Part shown: piece after piece, positions 21,172-62,631 of the stretch
How the letters are laid out: the number at the start of each line of letters is the position of its first letter
Numbering within the stretch: the first letter of the stretch is position 1
Source: Flavobacteriales bacterium
GTDB taxonomy: Bacteria; Bacteroidota; Bacteroidia; Flavobacteriales_F; PHOS-HE28
Length of the DNA stretch: 64,000 nucleotides
Direction of reading: 5' to 3'
Assembly (NCBI GenBank): GCA_019638085.1
Contig: JAHBUL010000015.1
Location: 1 to 64,000 of the forward strand
Program-made: the position numbers and the translations under genes
The notes under the pieces: generated by a model
Told to the model about the DNA's origin: nothing
Seen by the model: the letters and a program-made list of their open reading frames with translations, nothing else
The model's database searches: none

Positions 21172-22305
21172 TCAGGCCCTGCCATTCTCCTCCAGGTCGC
21201 GGAGGTACTGGTTGATGTAGTTTTCCCAGGTCATCATACTTGTCGCATTGTGCGCTGCGATCGCCTTTTGCGTCCATGCTTCATCATCCTCCATCAAATT
21301 GGCTATGGTCTCGGCCAGTGATCGCGGATCGTTGGAGTCCAGCGGATGCCCCACGCGGTTGACATCCCCGAATGTGCTTTCGAATTCCCGGTAGGGAAAG
21401 ATCACAACCGGTGTATAGAGATATAGAGCCTCGCAGGAAGCGGAGAATGCCGCCCACTTGGGGTTCGGGTTAACGAATAGGCGCGACCGTTCGAGGACAT
21501 CCAAGTAAGTCTGTTTTTGAGCCGATATGCCCTTATCCAGATAACCATGGAATTTCATGTTCCGAGGTGCCATTGGGAGATCACTGCGATCCATGCCGAT
21601 CACATGAACGGTCAATTCATTGCGGCCCTCGGCATTCAACACTTCGACCGCTTCCGCCAAGCGTTCAAGGCCTTCCTTGTATTTCCTACTTCCAATGAAC
21701 ACGATCTCCTTGGACGCTCGCTTTCGCTTCAGCAGTTCCTCCCGATCCACTTGCTGAATATCCATGTTCACTACGTTACCGTAGTATTTGACCTTGCTCC
21801 CATGTACGGTCCGCAGGCTTTCCGCAAGATCCGGGAACAAGGCAATGATCATGTCCGCCTTTCTCAAGTTCATACGTTCCTTCAGGATCGTGGGTCGCTC
21901 CAATCTGTCCGGATCCCGTTCATCGAAGTAGGCAATGTGTTGTTCAAAGGTCTGGTCGCAGAACAACGTATAGGGTCTTGTATCGCCGGCCCCGAAGGAA
22001 AAGGTCATGAAAACGCTGTACCCATCGGGGAATCGCGCCAATACCCGGCGGATCTTGGCTTCCACAAAATGACGGTGGACCCGGCTGCGTACAAAAGTGA
22101 ACCGCGTTTGCCTCCCTACCAGTCTGCAACATGTTCGCCATGGCACATCAAAGAGCAATTGAAAAAAACGAGGTGGACCTATGTTCACGTGGTGTACCCG
22201 ATACCCACGGTGCTCCAACGTACGCGTAAAGAAGAACGGCACATTCGACCATGTGCTCGGTTCTCGCGAGTCACCTTGGGAGAATACAATGAAGTCGGGT
22301 TTCAT
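21172..22305 (-). CDS. GT4-like glycosyltransferase
   Basis: This 377-aa protein has the two-lobe layout of GT-B glycosyltransferases. The C-terminal half has 'SKEIVFIGSRKYKEGLERLAEAVEVLN' and 'NMKFHGYLDKG'. It then has the donor-site stretch 'SRLFVNPNPKWAAFSASCEALYLYTPVVIFPYREFE', comparable with the E-x7-E region of family 4. The N-terminal half ('FVRSRVHRHFVEAKIRRVLARFP') is basic and probably binds the acceptor at the membrane. No other polysaccharide genes are adjacent, so the product cannot be named. Confidence 0.75.
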   Translation of the reverse strand: MKPDFIVFSQGDSREPSTWSNVPFFFTRTLEHRGYRVHHVNIGPPRFFQLLFDVPWRTCCRLVGRQTRFTFVRSRVHRHFVEAKIRRVLARFPDGYSVFMTFSFGAGDTRPYTLFCDQTFEQHIAYFDERDPDRLERPTILKERMNLRKADMIIALFPDLAESLRTVHGSKVKYYGNVVNMDIQQVDREELLKRKRASKEIVFIGSRKYKEGLERLAEAVEVLNAEGRNELTVHVIGMDRSDLPMAPRNMKFHGYLDKGISAQKQTYLDVLERSRLFVNPNPKWAAFSASCEALYLYTPVVIFPYREFESTFGDVNRVGHPLDSNDPRSLAETIANLMEDDEAWTQKAIAAHNATSMMTWENYINQYLRDLEENGRA

Positions 22306-22480
22306 GATCGGACTCGACCGGAATTCGATCCCTGTGAACTATGCGAAGGTCAAGGTATCCTTATGAGTTTGGCAAAAATGGACCTGCAGAGGGCACCAAT
22401 GCAAGTGCTACTTGGAAATCGGTATATCCAACAGGTTGCCGGATAGCCTACAATGGCTGTCGAATCCAAGGTGCAGCAGG

Positions 22481-60665: not shown

Positions 60666-60752
60666 GGAGAGGTGCCAGAGTGGTCGATCGGGTCTGTCTC
60701 GAAAACAGAAGTGCCCGCAAGGGTACCGGGGGTTCGAATCCCTCCCTCTCCG
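60666..60752 (+). tRNA. tRNA-Ser (anticodon CGA)
   Basis: The acceptor stem GGAGAGG (60666-60672) pairs with CCTCTCC (60745-60751), and the discriminator G is 60752. The anticodon stem TCTGT/ACAGA encloses the loop CTCGAAA, so the anticodon is CGA and the tRNA reads UCG. There is a long variable arm (AGTGCCCGCAAGGGTACC region), as expected of serine tRNAs. The T arm is GGGGG-TTCGAAT-CCCTC. CCA is not encoded; the sequence continues CCGATCG. The T-loop-to-3'-end segment recurs three times downstream at 60897, 61076 and 61242. Confidence 0.95.
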
Positions 60753-60754
60753 CC

Positions 60755-60914
60755 GATCGCCACCCGCGAAGCGGGTGCATGAATGCCGAAGGCCGCGCCC
60801 AAGCTCGCTTGGGAAAGCGTCCTTCGGCATTCATGCGGGACCCGCGCAGCGGGTCGGCGATCGAAGCCTCCCCCTCCGGGAAAGCGCGCCTCGCGCAATC
60901 CCTCCCTCTCCGCC
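60755..60914 (+). repeat. tRNA-Ser 3'-end repeat unit 1 (cloverleaf-like)
   Basis: The first unit ends in AATCCCTCCCTCTCCGCC (60897-60914), identical to the last 18 bases at the tRNA-Ser 3' end (60737-60754). Inside it, CGATCGCC (60754-60761) pairs with GGCGATCG (60856-60863) and encloses three hairpins. These are ACCCGC-gaa-GCGGGT (60762-60776), a 16-bp stem GCATGAATGCCGAAGG/CCTTCGGCATTCATGC (60777-60836) capped by CCCAAG/CTTGGG, and ACCCGC-gca-GCGGGT (60840-60854). The arms can also pair as one long stem of about 36 bp. No protein is supported. Confidence 0.85.
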
Positions 60915-61093
60915 ACCGCTGCCCGCGTAGCGGGCGATGACGCAACCCCGGCCATCGCGGAGCCCGCTCCAAGCGTTGGCCGGGGTTGTGGCATCCAAGG
61001 CCGCGATGCGGTCGCAGCGTTGAAGCCTTCCCCCTTTGGGATGGCCCGCTACAAAGAGCTCCGCCCCATTCGGGCAATCCCTCCCTCTCCGCC
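60915..61093 (+). repeat. tRNA-Ser 3'-end repeat unit 2 (diverged)
   Basis: The second unit again ends in AATCCCTCCCTCTCCGCC (61076-61093). Its hairpins differ in sequence but keep the plan: GCCCGC-gta-GCGGGC (60921-60935), then a 12-bp stem CAACCCCGGCCA/TGGCCGGGGTTG (60943-60988), with CGCTG/CAGCG (60917-60921, 61015-61019) as a possible outer stem that shares one base with the first hairpin. A shared GAAGCCTTCCCC-type block precedes the tRNA-derived end. Conservation of structure more than sequence is notable. Confidence 0.8.
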
Positions 61094-61256
61094 GATAGCC
61101 ACCCGCGAAGCGGGTGCATGAATGCCGAAGGCCGCGCCCAAGCTCGCTTGGGAAAGCGTCCTTCGGCATTCGTGCGGGATCCGCGCAGCAGCTGCAGCGG
61201 TGAAGCCTCTCCGCTGTACGGCGGGAAAGCGCGCCTCGCGCAATCCCTCCCTCTCC
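61094..61256 (+). repeat. tRNA-Ser 3'-end repeat unit 3
   Basis: The third unit is nearly identical to unit 1 for about the first 95 bases (through the 16-bp stem) and diverges afterwards. In the long stem the right arm has G for A (CATTCGTGC), which keeps pairing as a G-U wobble in RNA. It ends with AATCCCTCCCTCTCC (61242-61256) and then TTCC rather than GCC. A TTCATCTTGC element resembling a promoter follows at 61261-61270 before the next gene. Confidence 0.82.
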
Positions 61257-61308: not shown

Positions 61309-62631
61309 ATGACCCGATCATCGATGACCCGTGCGAGCTATTGGTCCCTGCTCCTTCTTGCATTCGCTTCCTGCACTGCCACTCAGTCTGCGGTCAGCAG
61401 CAACGATGACTACTACTCGCCCAAAGAGCCGCGCTACGATAACCACGTCTATGTGGCCACCGTTCATACCGTGCAGCTCTTCAAGAAGGGCTTTGAACTC
61501 TCACCTGCCATCATGGAATTGGGAAGTCCCGATCCGTTGATCCTCCGGTTCGATGACTTTTCAGCTGATGCGGAGAACTTGTCCTACACCGTCATACACT
61601 GCACTGCCGATTGGGAAGCCAGCGATTTGGCCCCTAGCCAATACATCAATGGAATGCCGACCGACTTCATACCTACGCCCCGGCAAAGCTTCAACACCTT
61701 GAAGCCGTTCCTGGAATATGAGTTGGAGTTCCCGAACGACATGATGCAGCCCACGGTTGCAGGTAATTACCTCATGAAGGTGTATCGGGGGAATGATCAG
61801 GAGGATCTGGTGTTGACGCGAAGATTCTTGGTGTTCGAGAACCGGATCCAAATGGATGCAGGCATCGTGCCTACCCGCGATATCGAGCGCAGGGACAGTG
61901 ACCAGCAGTTGGACCTTACCCTACGCTATCCTGGGATCTCCGTACCGGATCCATTCAGCGACCTGAAGGTGGTGGTATTACAGAACAATCGTTGGGATGA
62001 TGCCCGCACGGGCTTCAAACCCAAGTTCATCCGCGGTGCGGAACTGATATACGACCAACCCAAGGAAGGCTTGTTCCCCGGAGGAAATGAATGGCGTGGT
62101 GTGGATCTGAAGAATACGCGGTACTCCACACTGCGCGTTGCGCGCTTTTTTACCTCGCCGGAAGGATTGGATGAAGCCATCCTACTGCCGGATGAAAAGC
62201 GCGAATACAAAGTGTACTTGGACCTTCCGGACATCAACGGAAAGTACTTGGTCCGCAACGACCTTGTCCAAGGCGACCCGCTCAGTGCCGATTATATCTA
62301 TGTAGATTTCGAACTACCGCGGACGCACGAACAACTCCATGGTGATGTGTACGTGTACGGAGCCGTCAGCGACTTCCAATGCAAGAAGGAATTCCGCTGT
62401 ACTTGGGATGCGGAGAAGAAAGCCTACACCTTACGGGTGCTGGTGAAGCAAGGCTATTTCGATTACGCCTATGCATTCCTGCCTTCAGCAAGCACCATCC
62501 CCGACCTGACCTTGTTCGAGGGGTCACACTACCAAACGGAGAACGACTACGTGGTGCTGGTATACATCCGCGACTACCAGCTGCGTTGTGATCGCTTGCT
62601 CGGACTGAAGTTCCTCAACAGCAAGGGTTGA
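61309..62631 (+). CDS. Type IX secretion system plug protein (DUF5103) lipoprotein
   Basis: The start at 61309 (440 aa) or 61324 (435 aa) begins a lipoprotein-type signal with 'LLLAFASC'; the upstream part of the frame is in the tRNA trailer region. The body matches the DUF5103 family, now described as the T9SS plug protein. Features are 'GSPDPLILRFDDFSADAENLSYTVIHC', 'FNTLKPFLEYELEFPND', 'GNYLMKVYRGNDQEDLVLTRRF' and the C-terminal 'ENDYVVLVYIRDYQLRCDRLLG'. In T9SS this protein blocks the periplasmic side of the SprA/Sov translocon channel when it is idle. Several T9SS cargo proteins are encoded in this window. Confidence 0.85.
   Translation: MTRSSMTRASYWSLLLLAFASCTATQSAVSSNDDYYSPKEPRYDNHVYVATVHTVQLFKKGFELSPAIMELGSPDPLILRFDDFSADAENLSYTVIHCTADWEASDLAPSQYINGMPTDFIPTPRQSFNTLKPFLEYELEFPNDMMQPTVAGNYLMKVYRGNDQEDLVLTRRFLVFENRIQMDAGIVPTRDIERRDSDQQLDLTLRYPGISVPDPFSDLKVVVLQNNRWDDARTGFKPKFIRGAELIYDQPKEGLFPGGNEWRGVDLKNTRYSTLRVARFFTSPEGLDEAILLPDEKREYKVYLDLPDINGKYLVRNDLVQGDPLSADYIYVDFELPRTHEQLHGDVYVYGAVSDFQCKKEFRCTWDAEKKAYTLRVLVKQGYFDYAYAFLPSASTIPDLTLFEGSHYQTENDYVVLVYIRDYQLRCDRLLGLKFLNSKG

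Follow-up and report, generated by a model that had tools for sequence, protein, structure and literature searches.

What are the extra copies of a tRNA 3' end that stand in a row behind a serine tRNA gene, and how could they have arisen there? The window, by which we mean the whole 64,000-nucleotide stretch of DNA analysed here, contains a single tRNA gene, tRNA-Ser(CGA). A sequence-only reading of the window had reported that the 3' end of this tRNA recurs at 60897, 61076 and 61242, and an exact-match search of the window confirmed it: the 15-nt end AATCCCTCCCTCTCC occurs at 60737, 60897, 61076 and 61242, with the reported spacings of 160, 179 and 166 bp, and at no other position in the window with up to two mismatches. 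A chance origin was rejected, with 0.23 matches expected at two mismatches or fewer and 0 of 100 shuffles reaching four. The locus has the following features.

60666..60754, + strand: tRNA-Ser(CGA), complete, source of the copied 3' end (ARAGORN; Rfam RF00005, 50.2 bits)
60752..60911, + strand: unit 1, palindrome, altered T-arm and tRNA 3' copy (palindrome model match 60752-60875)
60777..60836, + strand: long stem of unit 1, arms 60777-60796 and 60817-60836 (inverted repeat I2, 95% complementary)
60878..60902, + strand: altered T-arm of unit 1, T-stem strands flanking a hairpin, no T-loop (sequence and fold)
60897..60911, + strand: tRNA-Ser 3'-end copy 1 (exact match)
60912..61090, + strand: unit 2, with an enlarged T-arm insert (palindrome model match 60912-61034)
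60936..60995, + strand: long stem of unit 2, arms 60936-60958 and 60973-60995 (inverted repeat I1, 87% complementary)
61076..61090, + strand: tRNA-Ser 3'-end copy 2 (exact match)
61091..61256, + strand: unit 3 (palindrome model match 61091-61214)
61116..61175, + strand: long stem of unit 3, arms 61116-61135 and 61156-61175 (inverted repeat I5, 90% complementary)
61242..61256, + strand: tRNA-Ser 3'-end copy 3, with no GCC after it (exact match)
61309..62631, + strand: downstream gene, 440 aa from the ATG at 61309, marker of the syntenic site (homologues behind tRNA-Ser(CGA) in eight genomes)

Each unit opens with a long palindrome and ends in an orphan copy that keeps the 3' T-stem and 3' acceptor strands of the tRNA and has a hairpin in place of the T-loop. 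The altered T-arm of units 1 and 3 reads GGGA-AA-GCGCGCCTCGCGC-AA-TCCC, while the insert in unit 2 is longer. Units 1 and 3 also have in common a 114-nt repeat (97% identity) that starts within the tRNA tail; unit 2 is built alike, around a long stem of different sequence. The trinucleotide GCC joins unit 1 to unit 2 and unit 2 to unit 3 and is missing after unit 3. Folding z-scores are −8.0, −5.7 and −5.7 for units 1 to 3, each beating all 200 shuffles.

The array is not an assembly artefact, a concern raised in the same reading, because copies recur at the syntenic site in other genomes; in genome G013, positions 1-384 of the locus are matched at 89%. When the syntenic site is defined by the same downstream gene and two loci of one genome are counted once, eight genomes carry 3, 2, 1, 1, 1, 0, 0 and 0 tail copies (two mismatches or fewer), so that occupied and empty alleles, from three copies to none, exist at one site. 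The repeats are real, conserved and much wider than first reported.

We collected 21 different Ser units of 90 to 230 nt and aligned 19 of them, leaving out one of 127 nt and one of 215 nt. The order of elements begins with GCC, an outer stem, a small hairpin and a long stem often capped by GAGCTTGCTC, continues with a second small hairpin, the partner of the outer stem, GAAGCC and a run of C, and closes with GGGA, the hairpin replacing the T-loop, AATCCC and the acceptor strand. Across the 19 units the consensus fold from RNAalifold contains 37 column pairs, 28 of which show changes on both sides. Pairing holds in 90.1% of cells, as compared to 64.2% in shuffled and 36–42% in slid versions, and 0 of 500 shuffles reach any of five measures. 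Covariation of this strength also fits a selected terminator, a selected RNA, or template switching in palindromes, and the last of these could mimic part of it.

A covariance model of the palindrome, R1, built from 13 sequences with the tRNA end left out, was matched 99 times at E ≤ 1e-4, in 35 of the 45 genomes of the genus, one match being the reverse reading of another. The four genomes with full tRNA lists hold 6, 5, 1 and 2 matches, and by a comparison of coordinates made by hand all 14 lie in tRNA-anchored units, directly behind a tRNA or as the next array unit; those that could be typed are Ser or Leu-GAG. Among the 30 matches that were fetched with their flanks, 27 have a called tRNA upstream on the same strand and all 30 begin immediately after a 3' end of Ser or Leu type, whether that of a complete tRNA or of an orphan. 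At several loci the altered T-arm alone remains and the acceptor part of the copy is missing. A dispersed palindrome of the REP type was considered and rejected, the matches being anchored (14/14) or behind a tRNA-type 3' end (30/30) rather than scattered. One palindromic array (L308, G007:C75, around 22277-22396) lies behind the degenerate tail of a tRNA-Ser at a place where no tRNA is called in the vicinity, and may have lost or left its tRNA.

Whether other tRNAs carry their own 3'-end repeats, a question also posed by the sequence-only reading, can be answered in the affirmative. We scanned three genomes for the last 15 paired-end nt of each tRNA within 1500 nt, allowing two mismatches. 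Downstream copies were found for 8 of the 45 tRNAs of this genome (Asn, Gly-GCC, Leu-GAG, Met, Pro-CGG, Pro-GGG, Ser-GGA and Ser-CGA) and for 2/42 and 3/43 in two relatives; upstream copies and reverse complements were each found for 0 of the 130 tRNAs of the three genomes. The 15-mers of tRNAs for other amino acids, a control that may still include real neighbouring tRNAs (25/1888, 16/1642 and 29/1724), predict 0.60, 0.41 and 0.72 tRNAs with a copy, and in the two relatives the counts are small (2 and 3 vs 0.41 and 0.72 expected). Ser-GCT of this genome has degenerate copies in addition. Behind tRNA-Pro(GGG) at another locus (L065, G000:C14) stand three tandem near-complete pseudo-tRNAs, each preceded by a terminator-like hairpin, in which other hairpins replace the anticodon arm and the T-arm.

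At two tRNAs of this genome, tRNA-Met and tRNA-Asn, the segment between tRNA and copy encodes a small predicted GIY-YIG protein, an assignment that rests on PF01541 matches; the unit at tRNA-Met is absent in genome G010. The window array holds no GIY-YIG gene, and the four PF01541 matches of the genome all lie elsewhere. We sampled 71 GIY-YIG loci of the genus, a subset of the small matches, and found a tRNA at 23 of the 71 and a tmRNA at 6 more (two sets, 20 chosen loci each). After a UvrC gene and a UvrC fragment were dropped, the tree of the remaining 69 small proteins, rooted at its midpoint, divides with support 99/96 into clade A (n = 32) and clade B (n = 37). A tRNA or tmRNA on the same strand within 300 nt accompanies 29/32 genes of clade A and 0/37 of clade B, and the three exceptions in clade A sit at the end of the fetched sequence, with 8 to 78 nt of upstream sequence. 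The six tmRNA-linked clade A genes (L183, L187, L196, L197, L205, L206) lie about 145–185 nt behind the tmRNA. One clade B gene (L075, G000:C23:2922-3143 and flanks) is surrounded by repeated palindromes, GGGATGGCGGGTCAAGCCCGCCATGACGG and GTCACTGCGGGCCC-GACCCGCAGTCCCGG, and clade B may belong to a separate dispersed palindrome system.

Lineages of clade A track their targets. The three Met proteins form one clade and the two Ala-GGC proteins another; the six Leu-CAA proteins group with Leu-TAA, the six Pro-GGG proteins with Val-CAC, and tmRNA with Ser-TGA. The 12 target labels need 14 changes on the tree, as compared to a mean of 25.5 after shuffling. In 20 clade sequences Arg27 and Glu63 are invariant and Tyr5, Tyr16 and Gly18 nearly so, which we take to be the catalytic positions of these GIY-YIG relatives. 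Neither NCBIfam (five proteins tested) nor PHROGs (four tested) has a name for the clade proteins. The solved sequences closest to the clade profile are PDB 1zg2, 1ywl and 7cq2 (E = 9.8e-18, 2.5e-12 and 3.3e-8).

Seventeen chosen tRNA-adjacent GIY-YIG loci were aligned to their own tRNA, and most have the 3' copy; it is absent downstream at L088, L104 and L170. At Leu-CAA (L096, L182) the 5' half of the tRNA is copied instead, upstream of the GIY-YIG gene, with hairpins in the D-loop region as judged by eye. At the tmRNA locus L196 and the Ser-TGA locus L170 the direct repeat is, also by eye, the region just behind the RNA gene. Two further GIY-YIG reading frames (L103, L202) extend into the next tRNA-Leu(CAA) gene. 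At tRNA-Pro(GGG) six genus genomes have a GIY-YIG gene, five of them with the 3' copy, and two others have ORF-less copies. At Ser-TGA a GIY-YIG gene is found in one genome, with no copy of the tRNA 3' end detected. Among the loci examined we saw no Ser unit with both a window-type palindrome and a GIY-YIG gene, and this is the weakest link between the window and the coding loci.

The orphan copies have a further property in common. We assembled 85 different orphan 3' copies, excluding 11 matches to complete tRNAs, and compared them with their tRNAs. A new perfect hairpin of at least 5 bp, absent from the tRNA, is present in 73 of the 85 orphans as compared to 464 of 2000 random 45-mers, rates that describe the family and not a random sample, as the set pools loci of which many were picked for GIY-YIG or Ser matches. 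Judged by eye, the T-arm holds the hairpin in the orphans of Ser, Pro-CGG, Leu and Gly, and the anticodon arm holds it in those of Met. An unbroken T-loop core GTTCRA is present in 186 of the 189 intact tRNAs, as compared to 39 of the 85 orphans; because it is intact in these 39, a mark placed in the T-loop alone does not fit all cases, and 37 of the 39 have a new hairpin. The small hairpin was also considered as a dispersed repeat and rejected, since the Gly-GCC orphan holds the single occurrence of CCTGCCTGCCGNNGGCAGG in the genome.

We favour, with somewhat better than even confidence, the explanation that the window array is a set of three non-coding units, likely the protein-less form of a family of elements that would invade tRNA genes through a small GIY-YIG nuclease encoded by its coding members. 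A nuclease of the clade would cut the tRNA gene, and repair against an allele bearing the element would copy in both the element and a replacement tRNA end. One intact tRNA would thus be kept, and the displaced end would become the orphan copy. Recombination between copies would then expand or shrink the array, and the hairpin in most orphans would mark a broken target, a putative immunity. Units without an ORF would either have lost the gene or depend on nucleases that move them in trans; candidates for such nucleases are the two clade proteins encoded at tRNA-Met and tRNA-Asn of this genome. Among the suggestions of the sequence-only reading, that of relics of repeated recombination at the tRNA points in the right direction, because copy number differs between genomes at one syntenic site and a nuclease gene is present in related arrays.

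The same array might have formed with no mobile element, the palindrome being the signal that ends the tRNA transcript and the units tandem duplications of the 3' end with its terminator. The first palindrome does start where the tRNA ends, a position at which other tRNAs here have a terminator-like hairpin; at several loci a single palindrome is present without an acceptor copy, and at tRNA-Asn the terminator is duplicated along with the tRNA part. We nonetheless consider such duplication unlikely. The Ser palindromes of the window have no T-run, and passive duplication leaves unexplained the hairpins inside 73 of the 85 orphan copies, the duplications of 5' halves, and the GIY-YIG gene that occupies this position at other tRNAs. 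An origin in attachment sites, left by repeated integration of islands or phages through a tyrosine recombinase, was already disfavoured and is highly improbable: the 3' ends of tRNA genes are well-known attachment sites at which insertion regenerates the end of the tRNA, but no tyrosine recombinase gene was found beside the copies, and none of the five PF00589 integrase matches of the genome is on the contig of the window (C7). The units, moreover, are 160–179 nt long without cargo, and at some tRNAs it is the 5' part that is duplicated.

The repeats might instead serve a function like that of rtT. In the tyrT operon of E. coli the tRNA is followed by rtT repeats of about 170 nt, each with the tRNA 3' end, and a trailer of this kind would be transcribed and processed into tRNA-end RNAs, which would serve as small RNAs or as decoys that occupy tRNA enzymes. 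The sequence-only reading drew this comparison, and as to layout it holds, with repeats of similar length that hold the tRNA 3' end; the structure is also conserved and covarying. Beyond layout the likeness fails. The Rfam RtT model (RF00391) has 0 matches in this genome at E ≤ 1, in a search whose control was positive in E. coli, and the window array was therefore rejected as an rtT RNA. It follows a different tRNA, has a palindrome and an altered T-arm, and shares its layout with several other tRNAs. The copies vanish in relatives at the same site, and the altered T-arm is unlike a tRNA substrate, so that we regard an rtT-like function as quite improbable. Matches to other Rfam families besides tRNA were below threshold, for example RF04351 (on the tRNA minus strand) and MIR1437 (on the palindromes), and were taken as chance.

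The preferred explanation, of protein-less units from a GIY-YIG element family, has partial counterparts among known systems. Bacterial mobile DNA favours tRNA genes for insertion, and the elements concerned usually bring an integrase. REP elements, dispersed short palindromes possibly moved in trans by RAYT transposases, resemble the units here in that short palindromes may be moved by a small nuclease in trans, and differ in that the palindromes here stand behind tRNA-type 3' ends and the candidate protein is of the GIY-YIG type. SLX1 cuts branched DNA together with a partner protein, and UPF0213/URI-type GIY-YIG proteins and SLX1 are the closest solved sequences to the clade profile; the partner and the cutting of branched DNA are features of SLX1.

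By analogy we likened the window array to the mORFs of fungal mitochondria and to SegB of phage; for the array, cutting, homing and mobilisation in trans are inferred. In a fungal mORF an endonuclease ORF is flanked on one side by a host gene whose 3' end works and on the other by the old 3' end that was displaced, and cases include atp6 of Allomyces and atp6, atp9, cox2 and nad3 of Glomus, of which Glomus atp9 is GIY-YIG (PMC3630166). The coding relatives described here have the same layout, with an intact host gene, an endonuclease gene and a displaced partial copy, whereas the window array has displaced copies and no endonuclease gene. Further differences are that mORFs occur in mitochondrial protein genes, as compared to chromosomal tRNA and tmRNA genes of bacteria, and that here hairpins lie inside the displaced copy, tandem arrays are formed, and the units of the window lack an ORF. 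SegB of phage T6 is a free-standing GIY-YIG homing endonuclease that lies beside tRNA genes and cuts inside them; tandem amplification of a tRNA segment needs its nuclease activity and recombination functions, and its motif is RAWTSGAAC (PMC13096335). We read this motif on the other strand as GTTCSAWTY, apparently a T-loop-like word, which is matched by 79 of the 189 intact tRNAs, as compared to 9 of the 85 orphans. SegB differs in being a phage gene that amplifies a larger segment with a whole tRNA, as compared to the repeated partial tRNA and putative cutting here.

The sequence-only reading knew of no description of such repeats in Bacteroidota. We likewise found nothing recognisable as chromosomal bacterial tRNA arrays in the literature on GIY-YIG and tRNA or tmRNA genes, homing endonucleases and tRNA pseudogenes (mostly open papers, best matches), and no rtT paper among the best matches, while the phenomenon itself extends far beyond one operon. 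Across Bacteroidota, genes for small nucleases and ORF-less palindromic units of the same layout appear to live on tRNA and tmRNA genes, leaving one intact tRNA. This would give bacterial chromosomes a counterpart of the replacement of host gene ends in mitochondria, and would offer an evolutionary explanation for tRNA-end repeats such as those of E. coli tyrT. It predicts that proteins of about 85 residues would cut at or near the tRNA arm in which the orphan has its hairpin.

Tentatively, the reading may be extended to a phylum-wide group of chromosomal parasites of tRNA and tmRNA genes. SLX1-like GIY-YIG nucleases, each lineage attached to one tRNA, would cut the gene, restore it from a copy of their own of the part that is lacking, and place a palindrome in the displaced part as a mark of self-immunity; protein-less units such as the Ser array would ride in trans, making the system a tRNA-bound equivalent of REP elements with their transposases. 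Coding relatives across Bacteroidota have the same layout, with a gene of 80–90 aa for a predicted GIY-YIG protein inside the unit, sometimes in perfect tandem arrays. The clade profile A1 has matches in 194 of 296 genomes of the phylum and in 103 of 140 genera; among the best 30 A1 loci a tRNA is present at 26 and a downstream 3' copy with at most one mismatch at 14. In genome G300 five GIY-YIG genes follow tRNA-Leu(CAG) at steps of 450 nt, and the tRNA 3' copies recur at the same step, each with an identical inserted hairpin where the stretch was read. A mirror image is seen at L223 (genome G180), where 5' copies lie 315 and 630 nt upstream of the tRNA with a GIY-YIG gene behind each.

When named genomes were searched with the Met-type alignment as the query, 51 loci emerged, from Bacteroidota, Balneolaceae, Rhodothermia, Cloacimonadota and others. 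A tRNA lies upstream on the same strand within 400 nt at 34 of them, further off at 6, and at none of these distances at 11; some of the 17 loci without one within 400 nt are at contig starts. The 3' copy was found at 19 of the 51. Two arrays outside the genus, both at tRNA-Met, mix ORF-less and GIY-YIG units. In that of Alkaliflexus imshenetskii (L255) an ORF-less unit of about 120 nt comes first behind the tRNA, and the GIY-YIG unit after it ends in the same altered tRNA piece; at L246 a 110-nt ORF-less block is repeated behind the GIY-YIG gene with five mismatches. At a further locus (L232, genome G329) a duplicated pair of tRNA-Pro(TGG) and tRNA-Arg(TCT) genes precedes GIY-YIG units, and 3' copies of the tRNA-Arg recur at 358-nt steps.
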